Positions 4,118 through 64,000 of a DNA stretch of 64,000 nt are shown piece after piece. Under the pieces are notes generated by a model. The model was not told the DNA's origin. It ran no database searches and saw only the letters and a program-made list of their open reading frames with translations. Each line of letters begins with the position of its first letter. The first letter of the stretch is position 1. The position numbers were made by a program, and so were the translations under genes. Origin of the DNA: an uncultured Bacteroidales bacterium (GTDB lineage: Bacteria; Bacteroidota; Bacteroidia; Bacteroidales; F082); contig ONKA01000011.1 in NCBI GenBank assembly GCA_900318265.1, positions 1 through 64,000 on the forward strand, given 5' to 3'.

Positions 4118-4519
4118 TTATTTAAAGGCTTTGTTGGCCAAAACCATGATGTCTTGCGCCGAGCAGCCGTTGTTGCACACGAAGTGGATGGTTTGGCTTT
4201 CCACCGTCACTTCCTCGGCCACGGGGAGTCCGTCGTTGGATTGGCTGGTGTGGGTCAGCCCGATGATGGCCACGCCAATCAAAATGCTGGCTGCGGCTGC
4301 GTAGGGTATCCAGCGTCTGTTGCGGTGCAATGGGAGAGGGGTGACATTCACTTCTGAAACGCCAGGCGCTTGTTGCGCCTTTTCAGCCCAATTCAGAAAA
4401 GATTTGTCGTCAGGGACTGACTTTTCGGCTCGCTCTTCCCACTGCTGGCGGTGCCGCCATTGGGTTTCGAAATCGTTTTGCTGTGTGCTTTGATGCGGTG
4501 TTTTTATATTGTCTTTCAT
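4118..4519 (-). CDS. Putative anti-sigma factor (single-pass membrane protein)
   Basis: 133 aa: a charged cytoplasmic N-terminus (about 1-68), one membrane helix (IPYAAAASILIGVAIIGL, about 71-89) and a short outer segment with two cysteines in VCNNGCSAQ. The size, topology and position 2 bp after an ECF sigma gene are those of Bacteroidota anti-sigma factors. There is no clear zinc-binding HxxxCxxC motif, so sequestration of the partner sigma is inferred from context. Confidence 0.7.
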   Translation of the reverse strand: MKDNIKTPHQSTQQNDFETQWRHRQQWEERAEKSVPDDKSFLNWAEKAQQAPGVSEVNVTPLPLHRNRRWIPYAAAASILIGVAIIGLTHTSQSNDGLPVAEEVTVESQTIHFVCNNGCSAQDIMVLANKAFK

Positions 4520-4521
4520 CG

Positions 4522-5058
4522 CTATAGATTGTTTTCTTTTTCGTACATTTTCTTTAGTGTCCGCTTGAGTCGGGCGATGCGCATGGCTGTGGCACCCACC
4601 GTACTGTCGGTCATTTCGGCGATTTCCTTATAGGAGAAGCCATCGAGGAAGGCTCGGATAACAACGCCGCTTTCTTCAGGCAATGTCTCGATAAGTTGTT
4701 GCAGTTGCTGGTAGCTGTCGTTGCTTGGCCCGTCATCTTTTGTATCCTCACTTTCCGTTTCGATAGGCTCTGTTTGCGGACTTCTGACGTCTTTGCGTCG
4801 GAGCATCAACATGGTGTTGGTGGCAACCCGCCACACCCAAGTCTTTTCCGAGCTGCGTCCCTCGAAGCTTTTGAAGCTTCGCCATAGGTTCATGATCACT
4901 TCTTGGACGCAGTCTTCAGTGTTCCAAGCGCTCCCAAGTCTATAGTCGGAACAGATATGCCAAATCATAGCCTTGTGACGAAGTATCAAGGCATTGAATT
5001 CAGCATGGCTGGTTTCGATGCGGCTTTTTTCGGCCTCTTGTGACTCGGAAGATGCCAT
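4522..5058 (-). CDS. ECF-type RNA polymerase sigma factor
   Basis: 178 aa. Region 2 is present (EDCVQEVIMNLWRSFKSFEG, then TWVWRVATNTMLMLRR) and region 4 ends with a helix-turn-helix (GFSYKEIAEMTDSTVGATAM followed by RIARLKRTLKK). It directs core RNA polymerase to a small regulon, usually in response to envelope signals. It is the first gene of a three-gene operon with an anti-sigma-like protein and a lipoprotein; a -7 box lies at 5100-5107. Confidence 0.9.
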   Translation of the reverse strand: MASSESQEAEKSRIETSHAEFNALILRHKAMIWHICSDYRLGSAWNTEDCVQEVIMNLWRSFKSFEGRSSEKTWVWRVATNTMLMLRRKDVRSPQTEPIETESEDTKDDGPSNDSYQQLQQLIETLPEESGVVIRAFLDGFSYKEIAEMTDSTVGATAMRIARLKRTLKKMYEKENNL

Positions 5059-5099
5059 TTTTTATTGTGTCTATTTGTGTCTTTTGATTTTTTTAGTTG

Positions 5100-5107
5100 C
5101 AAAAGTA
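5100..5107 (-). promoter_or_regulatory. -7 box (TACTTTTG) for the ECF sigma operon
   Basis: Minus-strand TACTTTTG about 42 bp before the sigma gene start; housekeeping-type sequence. Confidence 0.5.
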
Positions 5108-5233
5108 GATTGAAAAATAACGTCACTTTGTGTTTTTTTTTCAATAAAATGAATTTTTTTTCATGCAGCTGTTATTTTTTCCCGTTTTTATGCACCTAAA
5201 GAAACGTTAACATTATCACTAATAATTGCAATT

Positions 5234-6043
5234 ATGAAACGGACATTTATCTTTTCAATTCTGACCTTGGCATTCATGATGGTTTGCCAAAGTGCATTTG
5301 CCTATGATTACTACGTCAATGGCATCTATTACCGCAAAGTTACGCAACAACTCCCAGGTGGCGGTTGTGGCGAAACCTACCTGATCGTGGTCAACGACGA
5401 CGAGCAAAACACCTATTCCGGTGATGTGGTCATTCCTGAAACGGAGACCATCAACGGAGAAACCTACAGGGTGCGCTACATCGGCAGCGAAGCATTCTTC
5501 GGCTGCATCAACCTTACCAGCGTCACCTTGCCTAGCACCATCGTGAACATCGGTTACCATTCGTTTGCCGACTGCCATCTTTTGGAGTATATCGAGCTTC
5601 CTGCCGGTATGCAACAGATCAACTCGAATGCCTTCAGTTTCTGCTATGAACTCGACTACATCTTCATTCACAGCACCGAGCCTTTCTTCCTTTGGGATGA
5701 CGCTTTTGCCGACATCAACGACCATGTGCACATTGTGGTGCCCTGCAACTGCATTGAGGCCTTCGAAGCTTCAGAGGAATGGCAAGGCATCCAACTCTAT
5801 GACGATTGCGGCAATGTGGGCATCGGAGAAAACGAAAACGCCACTGTGAGCATCTATCCCAATCCCGCCATAGAAACCCTTACCATCGAAGCCGAAGGTC
5901 TCGTGACCATTGTCGATGAGATGGGCCGCGTCGTGAGAACCTTGTTTGTGGACAACAAACAAACCATCGATTTGCAAGACCTTCCTGGTGGCTTATATTT
6001 CGTGAAAGCTGGTACTGAAGTGAAAAAGGTTTTGGTAAAGTAA
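5234..6043 (+). CDS. BspA-like leucine-rich repeat protein with T9SS sorting domain
   Basis: 269 aa: signal peptide (about 1-23), then LRR_5/BspA-type repeats between about residues 75 and 165 (YIGSEAFFGCINLTSVTLP, NIGYHSFADCHLLEYIELP, INSNAFSFCYELDYIFI), then a type A sorting domain from about 195 (VSIYPNPAIETLTIEAEGL to GLYFVKAGTEVKKVLVK). Proteins of this type are surface-exposed or secreted and often mediate attachment. It is a lone gene followed by a strong terminator. I saw no clear -7 box upstream, only an AT-rich tract. Confidence 0.85.
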   Translation: MKRTFIFSILTLAFMMVCQSAFAYDYYVNGIYYRKVTQQLPGGGCGETYLIVVNDDEQNTYSGDVVIPETETINGETYRVRYIGSEAFFGCINLTSVTLPSTIVNIGYHSFADCHLLEYIELPAGMQQINSNAFSFCYELDYIFIHSTEPFFLWDDAFADINDHVHIVVPCNCIEAFEASEEWQGIQLYDDCGNVGIGENENATVSIYPNPAIETLTIEAEGLVTIVDEMGRVVRTLFVDNKQTIDLQDLPGGLYFVKAGTEVKKVLVK

Positions 6044-6065
6044 TGAGGTTAACTTGTTTTCAATG

Positions 6066-6103
6066 ACAAAAAATCCGAAAGCAGCTGCTTTCGGATTTTT
6101 TTA
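6066..6103. terminator. Strong bidirectional intrinsic terminator
   Basis: AATCCGAAAGC / GCTTTCGGATT arms around an AGCT loop, with an A-run before and a T-run after, serve the convergent LRR and DUF362 genes. Confidence 0.9.
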
Positions 6104-6120
6104 TCTCGCCATCTAGAATA

Positions 6121-7113
6121 TCAGTCTTTCTTGTCGATGCTGACGATGGTATATTTCCGTGTCCCAAGGCCAATCTTTTCGGCGTACTCCACGGTATGGG
6201 TGCCGTGTTTCTTGTTGATGCGTTCTTGCAAAGGCTTGGCGTCATCGCCCTTGCTGCTGATGTGATTGAATACGAGGTCGAGGCAGGCTTGGTCGAGGGC
6301 TACTGGGTCGGTGGAGGCCAGAATGCCGATGTCCTTGATGCGCGGTGCGGCAGGATGTCCGTCGCAGTCGCAGTCCACCGACATGTTGTTCATCACATTG
6401 ATGTAAATGATGTCTTTGCCTTCTTGCTTGAAATAGTCGTGTACGGCCTGTGCGGCAGCGGCCATCGACTCAAGGAAACTGTCTTGTTTGGCGATTGTCC
6501 AATGCTTTTGGCTCTTGCCCGCAGAGTGGATGTAGAGCTTTCCGGCGGTAGAGGCCACGCCGATGCTCTGGTTCTTCAGTACGCCGCCGAAGCCGCCCAT
6601 GGCATGTCCCTTGAAGTGGGCCAGGTTGATCATGAAATCGTAGTTTTGCAGGTGTGAGCCTACGATGTCGTATTGCAGATGCTTGGTGTCTTTGATGGGC
6701 AGTTGCATTTCGCCTTCCTCGTCCATGATGTCAACGGTGGCGATGTCGTTGTAGCCGCGTTCGGCGATGGCCTGACGGTGCTTTTCGGTGTCACCACGGT
6801 TGCCGCCGTATGCCGTGTTGCATTCCACGAGGGTGCCGTTCACCTTTTGTACCAGGTTTTTGATCAGTTCGGGGCGCAGGTGGTTGCTCTTCGACGACTC
6901 GCCAGTGGAGATTTTCACTGCCACACGACCATGAGCCTCCACGCCTAAGGCTTCATAGATGTGTACCAGCCCTTCTGGACTGATGTCGGTAGTCATATAA
7001 ACTGTTGCTGTCTCGCCTTCGGTTGTGGGTGGAGCGGGTTGATGTGTTTGTGCATGGCATGAAGCCATTCCTAATGAGCAAATCATGGCCATAATGATAG
7101 TGCTTTTAGTCAT
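6121..7113 (-). CDS. DUF362 domain lipoprotein
   Basis: 330 aa with a lipobox (GMASC, about residues 15-19). The rest is a DUF362 domain (about 45-325): RVAVKISTGESSKSNHLRPE, the INLAHFKGHAMGGFGGVLKN block and the late ILASTDPVALDQACLD block are typical. Many DUF362 proteins also carry a ferredoxin domain; this one does not. The biochemical function is unknown. It begins 25 bp after the flavin-reductase-like gene, so the two probably form an operon of exported redox-type proteins. The start at 7113 gives the lipoprotein signal; the ATG at 7158 does not. Confidence 0.85.
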   Translation of the reverse strand: MTKSTIIMAMICSLGMASCHAQTHQPAPPTTEGETATVYMTTDISPEGLVHIYEALGVEAHGRVAVKISTGESSKSNHLRPELIKNLVQKVNGTLVECNTAYGGNRGDTEKHRQAIAERGYNDIATVDIMDEEGEMQLPIKDTKHLQYDIVGSHLQNYDFMINLAHFKGHAMGGFGGVLKNQSIGVASTAGKLYIHSAGKSQKHWTIAKQDSFLESMAAAAQAVHDYFKQEGKDIIYINVMNNMSVDCDCDGHPAAPRIKDIGILASTDPVALDQACLDLVFNHISSKGDDAKPLQERINKKHGTHTVEYAEKIGLGTRKYTIVSIDKKD

Positions 7114-53391: not shown

Positions 53392-53955
53392 ATGATAGAA
53401 TATCATCCACTGAAACCGTTTCTCCCAGAAAACGCGAGAGTCTTGTTCCTCGGCAGTTTCCCGCCGCCAAAGAAGCGCTGGTGCATGGACTTTTTCTACC
53501 CCAACTTCATCAATGACCACTGGCGCATCGAAGGGCAGATCTGGTTCGGCGACAAGAACCATTTCGTCGACGTCGATCGCAAATGCTTCAAAATGAATGA
53601 AATCATGGCATTTCTGAATGAAAAAGGCATCGCTTTTTTCGACACGGCTACGGCAGTCAATAGGTTGAAAGACAATGCCTCGGACGCCTTTTTGGAAATC
53701 GTGGAGCATACTGATATTGATGCGTTATTGAATCAGATGCCGCAATGCCACGCCATCGCCACGACGGGCGAAAAAGCCACCATCGAAGTGTGCACTTATT
53801 TCATTATCGATACGATCCCTTCGCCCAATACAAAAGTGGCTCTTGAAGATGGTTTATCTTTGTATCGATTACCCTCATCTTCAAGAGCCTATCCATTATC
53901 ATTTGACAAAAAGGTTGAAGCCTATCGCAGGATGTTTGAGGCGGTGTTTACCTAG
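53392..53955 (+). CDS. Uracil-DNA glycosylase-superfamily protein
   Basis: 187 aa from the ATG at 53392. RVLFLGSFPPPKKRWCMDFF carries a glycosylase-superfamily G-x-x-P motif, and ATTGEKATIEVCTYF fits the second half. Members excise damaged bases; the exact specificity is not visible. Its 3' end overlaps the convergent sir2 gene by 8 bp. Confidence 0.8.
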   Translation: MIEYHPLKPFLPENARVLFLGSFPPPKKRWCMDFFYPNFINDHWRIEGQIWFGDKNHFVDVDRKCFKMNEIMAFLNEKGIAFFDTATAVNRLKDNASDAFLEIVEHTDIDALLNQMPQCHAIATTGEKATIEVCTYFIIDTIPSPNTKVALEDGLSLYRLPSSSRAYPLSFDKKVEAYRRMFEAVFT

Positions 53956-54700
53956 TCATCAAGGCGTCAATTGCTGGCAGGATCTCACCGGATTTGCCTT
54001 CGAGGTAGATGTCTGTGATGTAGTTCGTATAGGTCGAAGGCTCCATGTTGATTTCGATAATCTTGGCGCCGTTGCGCTTGGCGATGCCAGGAATCATATT
54101 GGCTGGACTGACTTGCCCCGAAGTGCCGATAATGACAAAAGCGTCGCAGTTCTCGGCAGCACGCACCGAGCCGTAATAGGCGTCTTCGGGGATGCCTTCG
54201 CCGAAGAAGATGAAGTCGGGCTTCATCAGGCCGCCGCACTGGGCGCAACGGGGCGGTTCCTCAGTGAGTGTCAGGCTCTTAGCATCGACCTTGTGGCCGC
54301 ATTTGGTGCAGACGAAGCGCGACATGTTGCCATGGAACTCATACACCACGCTGTTGCCTGCCACGGTGTGCAGGTCGTCGATATTCTGTGTGATGACGCT
54401 GCTCAAACGGCCTTCCTTCTCCCATTTGGCCAGGACGAGATGCCCGGGATTGGGTTTGATGTCCTTGTTGCTGAAGAAGTTATAGAACACCTCGCGGATG
54501 ATCTTCCACGACTCCTTGGTGTGGCGATAGTAGAAGTCGATGTCGAGTGAGTTAGGGTCGTACTGGTTCCAGATGCCGCCCTCGCCACGGAAAGGCGGGA
54601 TGCCGCTCTCAGCCGAAGTGCCGGCGCCGGTGAAGCCCACGATGTTCTTCGCCTTGGAGAGGATTTCGGCGGCTTGCTTGATTTTTTCTTCGTTATTCAT
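53948..54700 (-). CDS. NAD-dependent protein deacylase (Sir2 family)
   Basis: 250 aa. FTGAGTSAESGIPPFRGEGG is the NAD-binding signature, catalytic His is in VVYEFHGNMS, and the zinc cysteines are in CTKCGHKVDA and CAQCGG. It removes acyl groups from lysines and makes O-acyl-ADP-ribose. A 152-bp dispersed element begins 7 bp before its start codon and supplies the whole 5' region. A macro-like gene lies beyond the element, divergent. Confidence 0.93.
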   Translation of the reverse strand: MNNEEKIKQAAEILSKAKNIVGFTGAGTSAESGIPPFRGEGGIWNQYDPNSLDIDFYYRHTKESWKIIREVFYNFFSNKDIKPNPGHLVLAKWEKEGRLSSVITQNIDDLHTVAGNSVVYEFHGNMSRFVCTKCGHKVDAKSLTLTEEPPRCAQCGGLMKPDFIFFGEGIPEDAYYGSVRAAENCDAFVIIGTSGQVSPANMIPGIAKRNGAKIIEINMEPSTYTNYITDIYLEGKSGEILPAIDALMTR

Positions 54701-54706
54701 AGCGTG

Positions 54707-54858
54707 TTGTTTTTAATCACAAAACTTGCAAAACCCGACAAAACCTTATTGCTTGGCATAGGAAAGCGGCCAACCGGCACGCTTTCCGGCGGCGACGCAG
54801 TTGCGCAGCCGCCCACGCTAAATGATGGTTTTGTATGTTTTGTCGGTTTTGTGACATA
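54707..54858. repeat. 152-bp dispersed element, copy 1
   Basis: Near-identical to 62673-62824 (about nine in ten bases by eye). Inverted ends (TCACAAAACNNGCAAAAC with GTTTTGTCGGTTTTGTGA) flank a GC-rich hairpin core (GCGGCCAACCGGC to GCAGCCGC). Confidence 0.9.
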
Positions 54859-54915
54859 GATTATATTTCGATGCAAAGTTATACAAAAAATCTTGCTGGA
54901 TAAGCTGAAAATTTG

Positions 54916-54923
54916 TATATTTG
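54916..54923 (+). promoter_or_regulatory. -7 box (TATATTTG) for the macro-like/radical SAM operon
   Basis: TATATTTG 27 bp before the chosen ATG; the surrounding 50 bp closely resembles the BRO promoter at 58579-58628. Confidence 0.65.
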
Positions 54924-54949
54924 CAAAGTAAATGAAAGCATCACGGAAT

Positions 54950-56401
54950 ATGCAAACACAAAACCAAAGAGTCTATAAAGGCATTGAGCGACCATTATAT
55001 ACGCCAGATGCCATTTCTTCATTGAAGCCTGATGAAGTGTTCGTTTTTGGCAGTAACCTTCAAGGGCACCACGGCGGTGGTGCGGCACGCATTGCACAGA
55101 TGAGATTTGGCGCCATCTATGGACAGGGCGTCGGCTTGCAAGGACAAAGCTATGCCATCCCAACCATGCAAGGTGGTCCCGATACCATCCAGCCCTATGT
55201 CGACCGGTTCATTGCCTTTGCCATGGATCATACGGAGCTGTTTTTCTATGTCACACGCATAGGATGTGGCATCGCTGGCTTCAAAGACCAAGATATCGCT
55301 CCTTTGTTTGCCGATGCATTGGACATAGAGAATGTTTGTTTGCCTGAATCTTTCACAAAAATCATCGAGCAACTATCGCCAAGGAGACCTAACGAACCTT
55401 TCCCTGGAATCACACGCACCACTAGCATCAGATTGTACCAACAAGGACAAGCCCGCACCTTGGCAGATATAGCCATGGCACTTAATGATCAGAATCATTA
55501 TTCTGATTTGGAAAGCTTTATGCGGGATTTTGACGATGTGATCAAATCGTATAGGGAAAGGGGTACCGTTAGTTTTGAGATTTGCAAGATGGTTAAAGAG
55601 CTAATACGGGACAATGAGTCGACATTGTTTTCAAATTACGGCTATCTGGATTTTGATAAGTTTATCGAAATGGTGGACAATCTGTCTGCGTCAGATGAAA
55701 ACAATCCTTTGGAAATCATATACAGCCGAAGGGAGAAGACCAAAATGTTGAGACTTGCGGCTTTGCTCAACGACATTATGCATTACACCACCGCATCTGA
55801 TTTAATGAATGATTTGAGTTCAATTGCATACGGTAGGTTTAATTGTGGTGACAATCGCTTTATGAACGACCCATTCCGTTATCCGCTTTCCTATTTCAAG
55901 CAAGGGCTGGAACTGTTATGGGATGAGATTCAAGATAACGGTTATATGAGTAATGCGCTTTTGGAGAAAAAGATGTTCACCGAACACGAAGAAAGCGTAG
56001 ATGAGTACGGACTGAAACATGTTATCAGAAACGAGTACAAGCAAGACGGCCCCGACCATCCGGAAGTGTATTATCCGAAAAGGATAGGTACGGCTCCCGT
56101 GTATCTGCTTGACGATAACTATCTGGATCATTGTTCGGGAAGGCCATTGCTTGTCAAGTCATGTGGCGACGGCAAAGGCCCTTATGCACATCATACTTTG
56201 TATGAGATGGAGCTTGTCGAAGGCATTCTCAGGGGTGAATGCAGAAAAGGCAATTACGAAGAGATAGGAGGTTATTATATTCCTGTTGGTGATGATTCAA
56301 AGCCTATCTTCAAACAAGGACATGGAAAAATGGAGTTTGATATCCTTCCTGACAAAAGTCGTTTTTTGCAAAGAATACGCAAGAACGCAGGGCATTGCTA
56401 A
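54950..56401 (+). CDS. A1S_2505-like (macro-like) domain protein with unknown C-terminal half
   Basis: 483 aa. Residues about 15-125 match the A1S_2505 phage-type non-structural protein family: EVFVFGSNLQGHHGGGAARI, GAIYGQGVGLQGQSYAIPT and VTRIGCGIAGFKDQDIAPLF. Phage proteins of this kind are about this domain alone. The remaining ~350 residues are new to me: a helical segment (about 160-330), then a beta-rich C-terminus with CSGRPLLVKSCGDGKGPYAH and IGGYYIPVGDDSKP. Its stop overlaps the next ATG by one base. The start at 54950 is chosen over 54932, which would leave a leader of only about 4 nt. Confidence 0.72.
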   Translation: MQTQNQRVYKGIERPLYTPDAISSLKPDEVFVFGSNLQGHHGGGAARIAQMRFGAIYGQGVGLQGQSYAIPTMQGGPDTIQPYVDRFIAFAMDHTELFFYVTRIGCGIAGFKDQDIAPLFADALDIENVCLPESFTKIIEQLSPRRPNEPFPGITRTTSIRLYQQGQARTLADIAMALNDQNHYSDLESFMRDFDDVIKSYRERGTVSFEICKMVKELIRDNESTLFSNYGYLDFDKFIEMVDNLSASDENNPLEIIYSRREKTKMLRLAALLNDIMHYTTASDLMNDLSSIAYGRFNCGDNRFMNDPFRYPLSYFKQGLELLWDEIQDNGYMSNALLEKKMFTEHEESVDEYGLKHVIRNEYKQDGPDHPEVYYPKRIGTAPVYLLDDNYLDHCSGRPLLVKSCGDGKGPYAHHTLYEMELVEGILRGECRKGNYEEIGGYYIPVGDDSKPIFKQGHGKMEFDILPDKSRFLQRIRKNAGHC

Positions 56402-57279
56402 TGGAAGCATTTGGCAAAGAAATACAGATTAAACGTTTCGGTTGTAACTGCTTGGATGAACCAGGGCAACCCATCGACCCGTCGGTCAACCTATTCGTCA
56501 AAGTCACCAAAAGCTGCAATGCCCGTTGCCTGTTTTGTAGCAATGCTGAAACCTCGATGCCCAGCGTGCCTTTCAATGTGCCCAAATTGCTTGAAATCAT
56601 AAGGGAATTGAAAGCCGCAGGAATCAGAGTGAATCGAGTGAACATCACGGGCGGAGAGCCTTCGGTGGTTTCGGCATTGGTGGAGGAAATCCTTCAAAAG
56701 ATGGAGGATCCTGTCTTTACTGATTTACACTTGCATCTGAACACAAATGGGCTGCTGCCACAATCCCAGAGACTTATGCGTCATCCGCGTTGGGATAGCA
56801 TTTCCATGTCGCTTCATCATTATGACTTGTCCAAACTCTCTGAATTATATGGATGTGAAATCCCAAACAGGGCGTTCGACTTTGAAGGAATCGACAGGCA
56901 ACGTCTTAATGCCAGCTGCAACTTGATCAAAGGATACATCGACTCTCCCAAGGAAGCCTCCAAAATGCTTGATTTCGCTTTGGAGCTTGGCCTTCCCAGG
57001 ATCGGATTTGTCGCCTTGATGAAAGTGAACGCCTTTTGTCAAGACCATTTTGTGGATTTGGAGGACATCCATCTTGACACCCTTCCACATGTCTATTTCA
57101 CCAAGTCTATGGATAGGGGTAGTGACTGTAAATGCTCTAACTATCTTTACAACAAAAACTTGAAGATATTGGAGATTTATATGCGAAACTATGCCAATCC
57201 CCAGTATTGTGAATCGTCCTTGGTCTATGATGGTGAGTTTTTGCGTCAGGGCTTTCATCAAAACAACATCATCTATTGA
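56401..57279 (+). CDS. Radical SAM protein 1 of the macro-like operon
   Basis: 293 aa. The radical SAM cluster is CNARCLFC in KVTKSCNARCLFCSNAE, and the SAM-site ITGGEPSVV follows. The C-terminus holds more cysteines (DCKCSNYLY, QYCESSL) which might bind an auxiliary cluster, and ends DGEFLRQGFHQNN. It is not a viperin: the flanking motif differs. The substrate is unknown. It is translationally coupled to the macro-like protein and followed after 3 bp by a second radical SAM enzyme. Confidence 0.82.
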   Translation: MEAFGKEIQIKRFGCNCLDEPGQPIDPSVNLFVKVTKSCNARCLFCSNAETSMPSVPFNVPKLLEIIRELKAAGIRVNRVNITGGEPSVVSALVEEILQKMEDPVFTDLHLHLNTNGLLPQSQRLMRHPRWDSISMSLHHYDLSKLSELYGCEIPNRAFDFEGIDRQRLNASCNLIKGYIDSPKEASKMLDFALELGLPRIGFVALMKVNAFCQDHFVDLEDIHLDTLPHVYFTKSMDRGSDCKCSNYLYNKNLKILEIYMRNYANPQYCESSLVYDGEFLRQGFHQNNIIY

Positions 57280-57282
57280 AGT

Positions 57283-58548
57283 ATGACGATAGCTGAACTA
57301 TACGAGTCAAGGAAGGACGATCCGCGGTTGAACACTTCATATCCGTTGCATCCTGAGGATTGGGCAAAATATCGTGTGGAGGGGCCGCTTCCTTTCAACG
57401 ATGAAAAACGGCTCTCGTTTTATATCCATATTCCTTTTTGCAGGCAGCTATGCTCGTTTTGCGAATACACCCGAATGCTTTGCCCTCATGAAGGCTTGCA
57501 GGAACGTTATCTTCGTACAGTGGCCAAGGACATCAGGCATTTCAAAGAGCAAAACCATGGCTTCACGCTTATGGGTTGTGATATAGGAGGTGGTACGCCC
57601 ACCGCTTTGTCGGAAAAGAACTTCTTGTTGCTGATGGAGGTATATAGGAACGCCTTGTCGGGATTGGAGCTTTCTTCTGGATACGAGCCAAGTATTGAAG
57701 CCACTTTCGACACCCTTACGGAAGCGAAATTAAAGGGTGTTGTAAATGCCGGCATACACAGGTTGTCTTTGGGAGTACAGTCTTCCTGCGATGCCATCAT
57801 GAAGAGACATCGTCGGTTGGGCAGTGATGAGAGACAGATGTCGGATGGGCTTGCCATGGCTGAAAAAATCGGCATCAAAAAGGTAAACCTTGATTTCATG
57901 TATGGCTTTCAAGGACAAAAAGAGGCTTCGATCGACCGGGACCTCGAACTTATCGGCCACCTGCATCCGCAACAAGTCACGTTATATGAATTGCGGACAA
58001 ACATGCTTGCATCAAATGCTTCTCTTTCGAAAGAAGCGTTGTATGACCAATATTCACAGTATTACGATGGTATTATAGGTCTGGGCTATAAAGGAAGGTT
58101 TGGCCAAAACACATTCTCCCTGGATGCCGATGATTATGGCGTTTCATCATATCTCAAAGAAAGAATGATCAACGGTGCATCATACAAAGGATTTGGCTTG
58201 TCGGCACAAAGCATGAGCTGCGCTGGGGTTTCGTATAACGTTGGGAAACTGTCGAAGGATCCCATGCAAGCCTTGAACGAAAATGGCTATCAAGAAGAAT
58301 ACACTTATTTGTTGCCTTCAAAAGAGCAGGCCGCCAAGTATATGGCCATATCCGCCTACCATGGCTCTTTTTCTGTAAATAGGCTGTTGGAGTTGGGAAT
58401 AGACAAGGATTTCTTGGATAAAAGACTTGATTTCTGTTTCTCACAAGGCCTTTTATTCATGGGTGAAAATGACAGAATATTTGTTACCAAGAAAGGTTTT
58501 GCCCATTATGGAGCGGTGTTTTCGCTGTTCTATGGGGATGAGGGCTAG
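57283..58548 (+). CDS. Radical SAM protein 2, HemW/HemN-like
   Basis: 421 aa. FYIHIPFCRQLCSFCEYTRM holds the CxxxCxxC cluster in the HemW-like context, followed by GGGTPTAL, HRLSLGVQSSCDAIMKRHRR and NLDFMYGFQGQ; the C-terminal domain (about 300-421) is of the HemN_C kind. The Cys-x-Phe variant of HemW's CxxxCxYCDF differs, and a true heme-chaperone is expected elsewhere, so this is probably a specialised paralogue acting with the two upstream proteins on an unknown substrate. Confidence 0.82.
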   Translation: MTIAELYESRKDDPRLNTSYPLHPEDWAKYRVEGPLPFNDEKRLSFYIHIPFCRQLCSFCEYTRMLCPHEGLQERYLRTVAKDIRHFKEQNHGFTLMGCDIGGGTPTALSEKNFLLLMEVYRNALSGLELSSGYEPSIEATFDTLTEAKLKGVVNAGIHRLSLGVQSSCDAIMKRHRRLGSDERQMSDGLAMAEKIGIKKVNLDFMYGFQGQKEASIDRDLELIGHLHPQQVTLYELRTNMLASNASLSKEALYDQYSQYYDGIIGLGYKGRFGQNTFSLDADDYGVSSYLKERMINGASYKGFGLSAQSMSCAGVSYNVGKLSKDPMQALNENGYQEEYTYLLPSKEQAAKYMAISAYHGSFSVNRLLELGIDKDFLDKRLDFCFSQGLLFMGENDRIFVTKKGFAHYGAVFSLFYGDEG

Positions 58549-58609
58549 GGTTGTCCGATTCGTCTTGTGTTTTCTATAAAAAAATCATGCAAAATAATCT
58601 GAAAATGCG

Positions 58610-58617
58610 TATATTTG
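58610..58617 (+). promoter_or_regulatory. -7 box (TATATTTG) for the BRO gene
   Basis: TATATTTG 28 bp before the ATG at 58645. Confidence 0.65.
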
Positions 58618-58644
58618 CAGAGTTAATGAACAATTGGAAAAACT

Positions 58645-59502
58645 ATGACACAAAAGCAAGCCATACAACTATTTGAGGAAAAACGGGTGCGTACCGCATG
58701 GGATACTGACAGGGAAAAATGGTGGTTTTCCATCGTTGATGTGGTTTCCGTGTTGACAGACAGCGACTATCAAACAGCGCGAAAATATTGGAAAGTGCTG
58801 AAAGGCAGACTAATAAAGGAGGGATTTGAGTTGGTAACAAATTGTTACCAACTGAAAATGCAGTCCACTGATGGCAAGCGTTATCTTACCGATGTTGCTG
58901 ATACAGAACAACTTTTCCGCGTTATCCAATCCATTCCGTCGCCGAAGGCAGAGCCTTTCAAGCAGTGGATGGCACAGGTGGCGGCCAAACGCATCGACCA
59001 AATGCAAGACCCCGAGCTCTCCATTGAACAGGCCGTGGCCGATTATCGCAGGTTGGGTTATTCGGAGGCATGGATCAATCAGCGGATAAAGTCGATTGAG
59101 GTTAGGAAGCACCTGACCGATGAGTGGAAGCGCGCTGGATTGGAGGAAGGCGTGCAGTTTGCCTCGCTGACCGATATCATCTATCGCCAGTGGAGTGGCC
59201 TTTCCGCCAAGGAATACAAGCAATTGAAGGACTTGAAGAAAGAGAACCTGCGCGACAACATGACGGACCTTGAAATTGCCATCAATATGCTTGCGGAGGC
59301 CACTACGACACAGATTTCAAGGAACGAGAATCCAAAGGGAATGGCCGAGAGTGCTGGTATTGCCCGCCGAGGCGGAGCCGTGGCGAACGATGCACGCAAG
59401 GCCGTGGAGAAAGAAACAGGGCAGTCAGTGGTCTCGCCATTGAACGCCAAACAGATTGCACAGGGAGAGGCGGAATTGCTGTTGGATGGCGAGCAGGATT
59501 AA
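58645..59502 (+). CDS. BRO-N/DinD-like phage-type antirepressor protein
   Basis: 285 aa. The BRO-N start (REKWWFSIVDVVSVLTDSDY, RKYWKVLKGRLIKEG) is followed by the DinD-like half with RRLGYSEAWINQRIKSIEVR. Proteins of this kind bind DNA and are common in prophages, islands and SOS regulons. It has a promoter like that of the radical SAM operon, which suggests joint control or duplication. No phage structural genes are present. Confidence 0.85.
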   Translation: MTQKQAIQLFEEKRVRTAWDTDREKWWFSIVDVVSVLTDSDYQTARKYWKVLKGRLIKEGFELVTNCYQLKMQSTDGKRYLTDVADTEQLFRVIQSIPSPKAEPFKQWMAQVAAKRIDQMQDPELSIEQAVADYRRLGYSEAWINQRIKSIEVRKHLTDEWKRAGLEEGVQFASLTDIIYRQWSGLSAKEYKQLKDLKKENLRDNMTDLEIAINMLAEATTTQISRNENPKGMAESAGIARRGGAVANDARKAVEKETGQSVVSPLNAKQIAQGEAELLLDGEQD

Positions 59503-62672: not shown

Positions 62673-62824
62673 TTGTTTTTAATCACAAAACTTTCAAAAC
62701 TTGACAAAACTTTTTTGCTTGGTTGTGGAAAGCGGCCAACCGGCCCGCTTTCCGGCGGCGACGCGGTTGCGCAGCCGCCCACACCAGATGATGGTTTTGT
62801 ATGTTTTGTCGGTTTTGTGACATA
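62673..62824. repeat. 152-bp dispersed element, copy 2
   Basis: Same length as 54707-54858 and aligned without gaps. It fills the whole gap between uvrA's stop codon and prdX's start codon. Confidence 0.9.
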
Positions 62825-62825
62825 A

Positions 62826-64000
62826 TTACAACTTGCTTTTCAACGCTTTCCCTGTATATGATGCCTTGCACTTCACCAAGTCCTCTGGCGTGCCTTCAAA
62901 GACGATTTCGCCGCCTCTGTTGCCGCTTTCGGGACCCAGGTCGATGACCCAGTCTGCCGACTTGATGACATCCATGTTGTGCTCGATGATAATGACGCTG
63001 TGGCCGTTGGCAATCAAGGCGTTGAACGATTCCAACAACTTATTCACATCGTGGAAATGCAGGCCCGTGGTCGGCTCGTCGAAGATGAAGAGCGTGGGCT
63101 TCTCCACCTGACCCTTGATGAGGAAATAGGCCAGCTTCACGCGCTGCGCCTCGCCGCCTGAGAGCGAACTCGACGACTGCCCGAGCTTCAGATAGCCCAA
63201 ACCGACCTCCTGCAAAGGCTTCAGGCGGTTGACGATGCGCCCGACAATGGGGGTCAGTCGCTCCGACGAGTGCTCGAAGAAGTCGATGGCCTCCTCGATG
63301 CTCATGTTGAGGATGTCGGAGATGTGCTTGCCGTCGTATTTGATCTCCAATACCTCTTCCTTGAAGCGCGTGCCGTGGCAGGCCTCGCAAGGCAGGTAGA
63401 CATCGGCCATGAACTGCATCTCGATCTTTTGCACGCCCTCGCCCTCACATTCCTCGCAGCGGCCGCCTGGCACGTTGAACGAGAAGAAGGCAGGCTTGAT
63501 GCCACGCAGTTTGGCCAGTTTTTGCTCCGAGAACAGCGTCCGAATCTCGTCGTAGGCCTTCAGGTAAGTGGCCGGATTGGAGCGCGATGACTTGCCGATT
63601 GGGTTCTGGTCGATGAACTCGACGGCTTGGATGAGGCGCAGGTCGCCTTCCAAGGCACCGTAACTACCGCATTTCTCGGCGTTCTCGCCCAGCTGCCGCT
63701 TCATGGCGGGGTAGAGCACATCCTTCACCAAGGTCGACTTGCCCGAGCCGCTCACGCCCGTGATGACGGTCATCATGTTGAGCGGGAAGCGCACGGTGAG
63801 GTTCTTTAGGTTGTTCTGCGTCGCGCCTTTAATGACGATGGCGTTGGCGCTCTTGCGTCGGCGGGTGGGTACGGGGATGCTCATCTTGCCCGTGAGGTAT
63901 TGCGTGGTGAGGCTCTTCTCGCAATGAACGAGGTCCTTGATTTCGCCCTCAAACACGACTTCGCCACCAAAGGCACCCGCCATTGGTCCGATGTCGATGA
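62826..64000 (-). CDS. uvrA: Excinuclease ABC subunit A, C-terminal part
   Basis: 391 codons before the right edge; the frame continues upstream of the edge (IDIGP before MAGAFGG), so this is the end of a ~940-aa protein. Visible: second Walker A ([18 protein letters not shown]), zinc-finger cysteines in [14 protein letters not shown] and CEACHG, ABC signature [15 protein letters not shown] and Walker [18 protein letters not shown]. It finds bulky DNA lesions with UvrB. Edge: truncated by the window. Confidence 0.95.

Follow-up and report, generated by a model that had tools for sequence, protein, structure and literature searches.

What is accomplished by three closely packed genes of an uncultured Bacteroidales bacterium, and do the genes on either side of them belong to the same system? 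The genes, referred to here as g1, g2 and g3, lie in a stretch of 64,000 nucleotides (F082; GenBank assembly GCA_900318265.1, contig ONKA01000011.1, positions 1-64,000, forward strand), hereafter called the window, and encode a protein with a predicted macrodomain followed by two radical S-adenosylmethionine (SAM) enzymes. The trio was found to be a strictly linked and mobile unit of gut Bacteroidales. It is tentatively read, at a confidence somewhat short of probable, as a protein-modification cassette in which g2 and g3 would modify the C-terminal region of g1, the macrodomain tying the product to NAD/ADP-ribose conflict. The features of the trio are as follows (aa, amino acids; all on the + strand):

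54950-56401, +, g1, 483 aa; A1S_2505 domain, predicted to have the macrodomain fold, and an unplaced C-terminal region
55037-55354, +, A1S_2505 domain of g1, residues 30-135; from NF049995, an AlphaFold (AF2) model and PDB macrodomain matches
55424-56398, +, C-terminal region of g1, residues 159-483; unplaced, seen only adjoining g2 and g3
56045-56068, +, g1 motif DGP[CD]HPEV, residues 366-373; from alignments
56162-56182, +, g1 motif CxxGKGP, residues 405-411; C, G, K, G and P invariant in alignments
56401-57279, +, g2, 292 aa, MoaA/viperin-like radical SAM enzyme; CX3CX2C at residues 39-46 (56515-56538)
57283-58548, +, g3, 421 aa, HemN/HemW/NocN-like radical SAM enzyme; CX3CX2C at residues 53-60 (57439-57462)

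The g1 frame is open from an ATG at 54932, with the in-frame ATG at 54950, and g2 may start at 56395 or 56401; with the ATG at 56401, g1 and g2 have one base in common, and 3 bp separate g2 from g3. An earlier interpretation made from the letters alone (the sequence-only reading) had described three overlapping or 3-bp-spaced genes, the second and third with intact CxxxCxxC clusters, and the open reading frame (ORF) calls agree with it in coordinates, spacing and the presence of CX3CX2C in both enzymes. Of 12 comparisons between the window and its relatives, 5 were saturated in dS; in the remaining 7 the ratio of non-synonymous to synonymous substitution rates (dN/dS) is 0.06-0.17, lowest for g2. 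The divergence is mostly synonymous and therefore g1, g2 and g3 behave as working genes.

The order g1-g2-g3 is kept at all ten trio loci, the window included, and neighbouring genes overlap slightly or stand no more than 15 bp apart. Full-length or C-terminal forms of g1 are present in 7 of 173 family genomes (G000, which is the window's own, G104, G113 with two copies, G126, G058, G100 and G075), all belonging to the window's genus, and the order is retained at the seven family places other than the window; nearly all the other g1 matches listed in family genomes span roughly the A1S_2505 domain alone. Beyond the family, one copy occurs in a Bacteroidales metagenome-assembled genome of a different family (G919, matched together with G000 by a g2 search of 393 order genomes) and another on the plasmid pE2-28 of Prevotella sp. 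E2-28. A g2 search of 172 family genomes matched six (7 copies), all six carrying g1, and missed the g2 of G100, which also adjoins g1. Homologues of g1 and g2 were always neighbours and the A1S_2505 match of g1 is upheld, so that neither of the findings named as refuting the sequence-only reading was made; homologues of g3 were not searched alone across genomes, its sequence search covering phages only, with HemN-like matches. The g1 C-terminal profile matched 1 of 395 phylum genomes (G000) and 1 of 72,556 plasmids, and a g2 profile built from trio and phage sequences likewise matched only G000 among the 395. No relative of g1 was found in viral contigs with either the C-terminal profile or the full g1 query; matches of the g1 query to 414 of 50,697 phage records fall, in all the rows listed, within g1 residues 3-156. 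The trio system is rare.

The protein encoded by g2 belongs to the Radical_SAM family (PF04055, 50.4 bits against a cut-off of 29.5), with an invariant CX3CX2C cluster. The extra C-terminal cysteines noticed in the sequence-only reading correspond to C243 and C245, invariant in 13 of 13 aligned rows, and C15 and C173 are invariant as well. Its closest solved structures are MoaA (6.4e-13) and the viperins (3.3e-12), with a weak pVip match in PADLOC (7.9e-10); it scores below the equivalog cut-offs for MoaA (48.4 against 325.25 bits) and viperin (35.0 against 180) and below those of the NCBIfam maturase models shown. Characteristic motifs are CNL-KGYID and, towards the C-terminus, CxCxNY and DG-L-GF. 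Full-length relatives with 28-35% identity occur in phage records of 7 to 735 kb and share C15, C173, C243, C245, CNL-KGYID and CxCxNY with the g2 of the trio. In a tree with 7 other radical SAM rows from weaker viral loci as the outgroup, the 8 trio rows form one clade (100/100) and the trio with 18 phage rows forms one group of moderate support (93/93); the trio g2 may have originated among the phage forms, although the tree does not decide this.

The g3 product is also a Radical_SAM protein (PF04055, 58.0 bits against 29.5) with an invariant CX3CX2C cluster, and matches the structures of HemN (1olt, 2.8e-33) and NocN (1.1e-24). It had been described as HemW/HemN-like; the likeness is to HemW, STM4012 and HemN, yet the scores lie under every NCBIfam equivalog cut-off shown (HemW 130.7 against 205.4; HemN 104.1 against 324.95; STM4012 127.9 against 380).

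The genes accompanying g2 in phages bear on its putative partner. Among 79 viral g2 loci, the 19 strongest (L075-L093) were inspected upstream, leaving out the other 60 (E 1e-18 or weaker); together with L054-L056 these make 22 inspected loci, a count which includes the near-duplicates L076/L077 and L082/L083/L087 and in which several loci are close relatives. A gene for a Cys-ended protein of 81-211 aa lies just 5' of g2 at 20 of the 22, with a possible 50-aa ORF in between at L089; the two loci lacking it, L054 and L085, are close relatives. As background, 25 of 335 ORFs of at least 80 aa at L075-L093 end in Cys, the partner genes themselves being included in this count. These small proteins look like uncharacterised precursors of the kind found among ribosomally synthesised and post-translationally modified peptides (RiPPs), and g1 holds the same place 5' of g2. 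The N-terminus of the phage partners gave a 29-column match to g1 residues ~188-215, scoring 20.4 against 10.5 +/- 1.9 for shuffles, with 1 of 300 column shuffles as high and other targets (A2, A3, A5, A7 and reversed g1) at 8.0-12.5; homology between the two is only suggestive.

Several further features of the phage loci were recorded. Among the partners (L075 5686-5997, L081 5678-5974, L088 5484-5993 and those at 17 more loci), many have Ser/Gly/Cys-rich tails. In two distant phage radical SAM proteins (L100 and L106, matching from 6001 on), the enzyme itself has a Gly/Ser/Cys-rich terminal tail, GGSCHSPSGGGCH and GGGCSHGGAGGGCR respectively. At 9 of the 22 loci, a conserved 43-69-aa peptide with GAACGQL is encoded within 400 bp downstream of g2 (L075 6897-7028, L076 6901-7050, L079 5897-6028, L084 6916-7050, L086 7227-7370, L090 6870-7079, L092 5635-5766 and L093 6850-6987 among them); the peptide of L075 has no Pfam or PHROG match, and a gene that reads as RlmN-like precedes in 8 of these 9 loci. 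NadR-like genes lie near phage g2 at 6 of 22 loci, Pfam having been checked for L055 only. Two phage records, LR756501 (L054) and IMGVR_UViG_3300031813_000003 (L089, L168), carry both an A1S_2505 domain and a g2-type gene, far apart.

The sequence-only reading had proposed an A1S_2505/macro-like N-terminus for g1, and the assignment holds. NF049995 (A1S_2505_Nterm) matches residues 30-135 over its whole length (model positions 1-109 of 109) with 142.3 bits against a cut-off of 45, and the macro-like character is recovered at the level of the fold, by comparison of a predicted model with the PDB. The AF2 model of the domain, built from 72 sequences, has a mean predicted local distance difference test (pLDDT) value of 96.3. 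Its best Foldseek match in the PDB is TARG1 (E 0.017, probability 1.00, TM 0.62), and no match is as good as E 0.001. Macrodomains make up almost the whole of the 50 rows shown, which also include two Vtc4 chains. In a second structural alignment the listed rows are macrodomains or designs on that scaffold, with Z up to 11.4. A comparison with viral models gave 7 matches at E <=0.001, all to phage proteins of this same type, followed at E ~0.05 by proteins with macro-domain titles. TARG1 is also the best PDB match of the sequence profile, a weak one (E 0.0077), and no match to the Pfam macro family was found in g1. On the strength of the model, the A1S_2505 domain, which corresponds to phrog_2072 (function unknown), is thus predicted to have a macrodomain fold.

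The genomic context of this domain points to ADP-ribose. At 31 distinct non-trio places drawn from a longer list of matches (L008-L030, L043-L046, L048, L049, the second A1S_2505 of L050, and L051, which belongs to another genus), for most of which the flank covered was just 1.5 kb, an ADP-ribosylglycohydrolase (ARH)-, NrtR-NUDIX- or vWA-like gene was found nearby or in the same protein in 20, and ARH or NUDIX in 16, counts for which there is no background frequency for comparison. Relatives show ARH-A1S_2505 (PF03747, 8.2e-39) and NUDIX-A1S_2505 (PF00293, 5.1e-22) fusions, and operons of NrtR-NUDIX, vWA-A1S_2505 and ARH; the vWA label is based on a match (7.9e-40) to a plasmid gene annotated as vWA, with no Pfam match for L042. 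A divergent A1S_2505-domain gene of L050 (7076-8125) follows a long ARH-like ORF (4364-6928). On pE2-28, ARH, an NrtR-type NUDIX, DUF6717 and two DUF1810 genes lie upstream of g1 on the same strand; g1 has 291 aa without the A1S_2505 domain, which is a separate gene after g3. This plasmid is the only trio locus with both ARH and a NUDIX regulator, and neither ARH nor a plasmid-like NUDIX regulator was found in the 64-kb window (WYL was not looked for). In G075, g1 again lacks the domain, a NUDIX gene lies directly upstream and another A1S_2505 gene is on a different contig. The domain is fused to g1 at 8 of 10 loci; being separate on the plasmid and missing from the g1 of G075, it is not part of the invariant core, which therefore comprises the g1 C-terminal region, g2 and g3.

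Some 350 residues of g1 had been declared unplaceable, and the C-terminal ~325 remain so: no Pfam family was above the cut-off and no PDB sequence match was better than E 0.16. In an alignment of 8 rows, 45 columns are invariant; they are most concentrated over DGPxHPEV...CxxGKGP...YE (18 of 69 columns), a block that sits near the end in two short versions of g1. At 6 of 10 loci (the window, L035, L037, L039, L040 and L073) g1 ends in Cys, as do 3 of 174 background ORFs of at least 120 aa, a set that includes the window.

The flanks of the trio show it to be mobile, and exclude two neighbours from it. The features concerned are:

53948-54700, -, Sir2-family deacylase, divergent from the trio; resident border gene, outside the cassette
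54880-54936, +, direct-repeat copy before g1, ~82% like 58575-58630
58575-58630, +, direct-repeat copy before the BRO gene, partner of 54880-54936
58645-59502, +, BRO-N gene (Bro-N; PADLOC candidate PDC-S13); variable-slot neighbour, outside the cassette

In G919 the trio and phage genes between them take up a 9.8-kb contig. The trio immediately precedes a gene for a tail tape-measure protein (phrog_25337, 1.5e-50) and follows short genes without a clear match that are tail-like by position alone; the contig may belong to an integrated prophage or may be phage DNA that was binned with the genome. The trio adjoins Sir2 in the window, G104, G113 and G126. Sir2 itself occurs in 51 of 99 genus genomes, most of them without the trio, and only 3 of 12 Sir2 loci read (L235, L237 and L242) hold it. 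Two others (L234 and L238) have BRO directly beside Sir2 and represent empty sites; a different gene stands next to Sir2 in L236 (without a PADLOC match), L239 and L241, and in L240 that gene resembles the ATP-binding gene adjoining the trio in L035 and L036. The sequence-only reading had pointed to Sir2 and BRO on either side of the trio. As parts of the system, Sir2 was rejected on its distribution and on the occurrence of the trio elsewhere, and BRO on the empty sites that carry it without the trio; the BRO query matched only the window among the loci searched, the other trio loci included. The suggestion of mobile-element biology in the sequence-only reading fits the copy before the tape-measure gene, the plasmid copy and the empty sites.

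In the window, the 57-bp segment ahead of BRO is repeated ahead of g1. It looks like a copy of a Bacteroidetes-type promoter, going by the consensus, and no comparable repeat was seen within ~200-250 bp at the other nine trio loci; an integrase-type target for site-specific insertion is therefore not claimed. Another intergenic repeat of ~155 bp, ~90% alike, lies upstream of Sir2 (54707-54863) and again ahead of the UvrA-like sequence that ends the window (62673-62828). The best-matching Sir2 proteins of the genus are 99-100% identical in surrounding DNA that is only ~87-92% so, which indicates strong protein conservation. Several neighbours of the trio match PADLOC candidate families: BRO (PDC-S13) and RhuM (PDC-S05) in the window, and ATPases (PDC-S01) at L037 and L041; L035 adds a UvrD/GajB-like helicase. 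All are candidates and not proven defence genes. Apart from the weak pVip match, PADLOC assigned the trio to no known system, and the case for a role in phage defence is circumstantial only.

Protein modification is the simplest account of these observations because the trio is strict and the phage enzyme is paired with small Cys-tailed proteins, and the system is placed in ADP-ribose biology because of the macrodomain fusion and the plasmid neighbourhood. We infer that g2 and g3 would apply radical SAM chemistry to a dedicated partner protein, namely g1 in its C-terminal region, where the conserved Cys of CxxGKGP and the GPxHPEV block mark the likeliest site or its vicinity. The macrodomain, which most copies carry as a fusion, may bind or trim an ADP-ribose-type ligand and so link the product to NAD/ADP-ribose conflict, presumably in defence or in competition between mobile elements. 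A wider version, in which g2-type enzymes modify the tails of partners that are small and Cys-ended in phages and mostly macrodomain-fused in bacteria and mobile elements, the bacterial form coupling to phage-host ADP-ribose signals as a new class of conflict system, appears rather unlikely as it stands. Several points weigh against the protein-modification cassette. No structure was obtained for the C-terminal region of g1, the whole-g1 prediction being unusable (pLDDT 40.7, from an alignment of 5 rows at 84-91% identity), and the conserved D, H, E, K and C of g1 could equally form an enzyme site. The terminal Cys is absent from g1 at 4 of 10 loci (L036, L038, L041 and L053), and the Cys patterns differ, the phage proteins having a terminal Cys and g1 an invariant internal one that is not universal among them, so that the equivalence is loose. 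With 14 of 17 phage rows used, hhalign gives the leader match a probability of no more than 0.8-3.7%, and both the Cys and the leader signs were noticed after the fact. No shared Cys-ended small ORF was found within 1.5 kb of the trio loci, other kinds of precursor not having been sought, with the sole exception of a Cys-ended stretch that lies out of frame within g1 and is shared by the four closest copies. Finally, no ADP-ribose gene was recognised near the trio at L038, L039, L041 and L073.

The nearest competitor, doubtful but deserving attention, is a small-molecule pathway, where g2 would act in the manner of viperin or MoaA on a nucleotide or ADP-ribose derivative, g3 would perform a second radical step and g1 would be an enzyme, its macrodomain binding or hydrolysing a toxic or signalling nucleotide product. 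The kinship of g2 to MoaA and viperins, the pVip match and the macrodomain with its ADP-ribose context agree with it; however, g2 falls far under the MoaA and viperin cut-offs, its viperin matches are confined to the radical SAM core, the phage g2 family mostly adjoins small protein genes, and the macrodomain is absent from g1 in G075 and encoded separately on the plasmid. The sequence-only reading had put forward a nucleotide- or ADP-ribose-related modification as a hypothesis; the ADP-ribose link survives through the fusions and operons of A1S_2505 in relatives and the plasmid locus. The RlmN-like genes before phage g2 (8 of 22 loci, and one ~3 kb off in L089, that of L075 matching only Radical_SAM in Pfam) and a KptA RNA 2'-phosphotransferase near the g2 of L058 would suit RNA or ribosome modification or repair, with radical SAM chemistry on tRNA or rRNA and a macrodomain for RNA 2'-phosphate/ADP-ribose chemistry, but KptA was seen at one locus only and Pfam and NCBIfam showed none of the three proteins to contain a recognisable RNA-binding family, which leaves this explanation improbable. 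Slightly less credible still is a cofactor or haem maturation set with g2 as a partner enzyme of g3; the HemW score and HemN structural match speak for it, yet g3 misses the HemW, STM4012 and HemN cut-offs and a spread over 7 of 173 family genomes misfits a housekeeping role. That the three are passengers hitch-hiking in variable slots with no joint function draws on the varied cargo beside Sir2 and is very improbable in view of an order that stays constant whether the genes are on a phage-like contig, on a plasmid or at various places in chromosomes, the short overlaps or gaps and the purifying selection.

If the protein-modification reading is true, it links radical SAM protein modification with ADP-ribose-based phage-host conflict, two themes not found joined in literature searches. 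Independently of this, the widespread A1S_2505 family gains a predicted fold, and a phage radical SAM family with an unusual Cys-ended partner is brought to light. The sequence-only reading knew of no named system with this trio, and our literature searches also found no publication joining a macrodomain with two radical SAM genes.

Among known systems, the ARG-centred conflict systems proposed in section 3.8 of Iyer et al. (2022, PMC9503650) combine a NUDIX/NrtR-type regulator, an ADP-ribosylglycohydrolase and vWA. A1S_2505 occurs in similar operons of the genus, and the plasmid trio lies downstream of ARH and an NrtR-type NUDIX; as a difference, the term 'radical SAM' has 0 occurrences in the main text of that paper. 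Prokaryotic viperins share the radical SAM core with g2, which departs from them in score and in its own C-terminal CxCxNY and DG-L-GF motifs. The macrodomains of TARG1/OARD1, DarG and alphavirus nsP3 show 8-15% identity to the compact A1S_2505 domain in the rows shown, and the Asp that follows GCGL in TARG1 aligns with Ala. In the STM4011-STM4014-type cluster, MoaA-like and HemN-like radical SAM enzymes (STM4011/STM4012) presumably stand side by side much as g2 and g3 do, with further partners that we take to differ from those of the trio, and g3 lies well below the STM4012 cut-off. Radical SAM cassettes for RiPP or protein maturation, with MoaA-like enzymes or HemN-like class C methylases such as NocN, have short precursors, whereas the trio partner is a protein of 291-483 aa mostly with a macrodomain; like them, the trio sets its enzymes beside a dedicated partner, g3 resembles NocN, and the phage relatives of g2 follow small Cys-tailed proteins.

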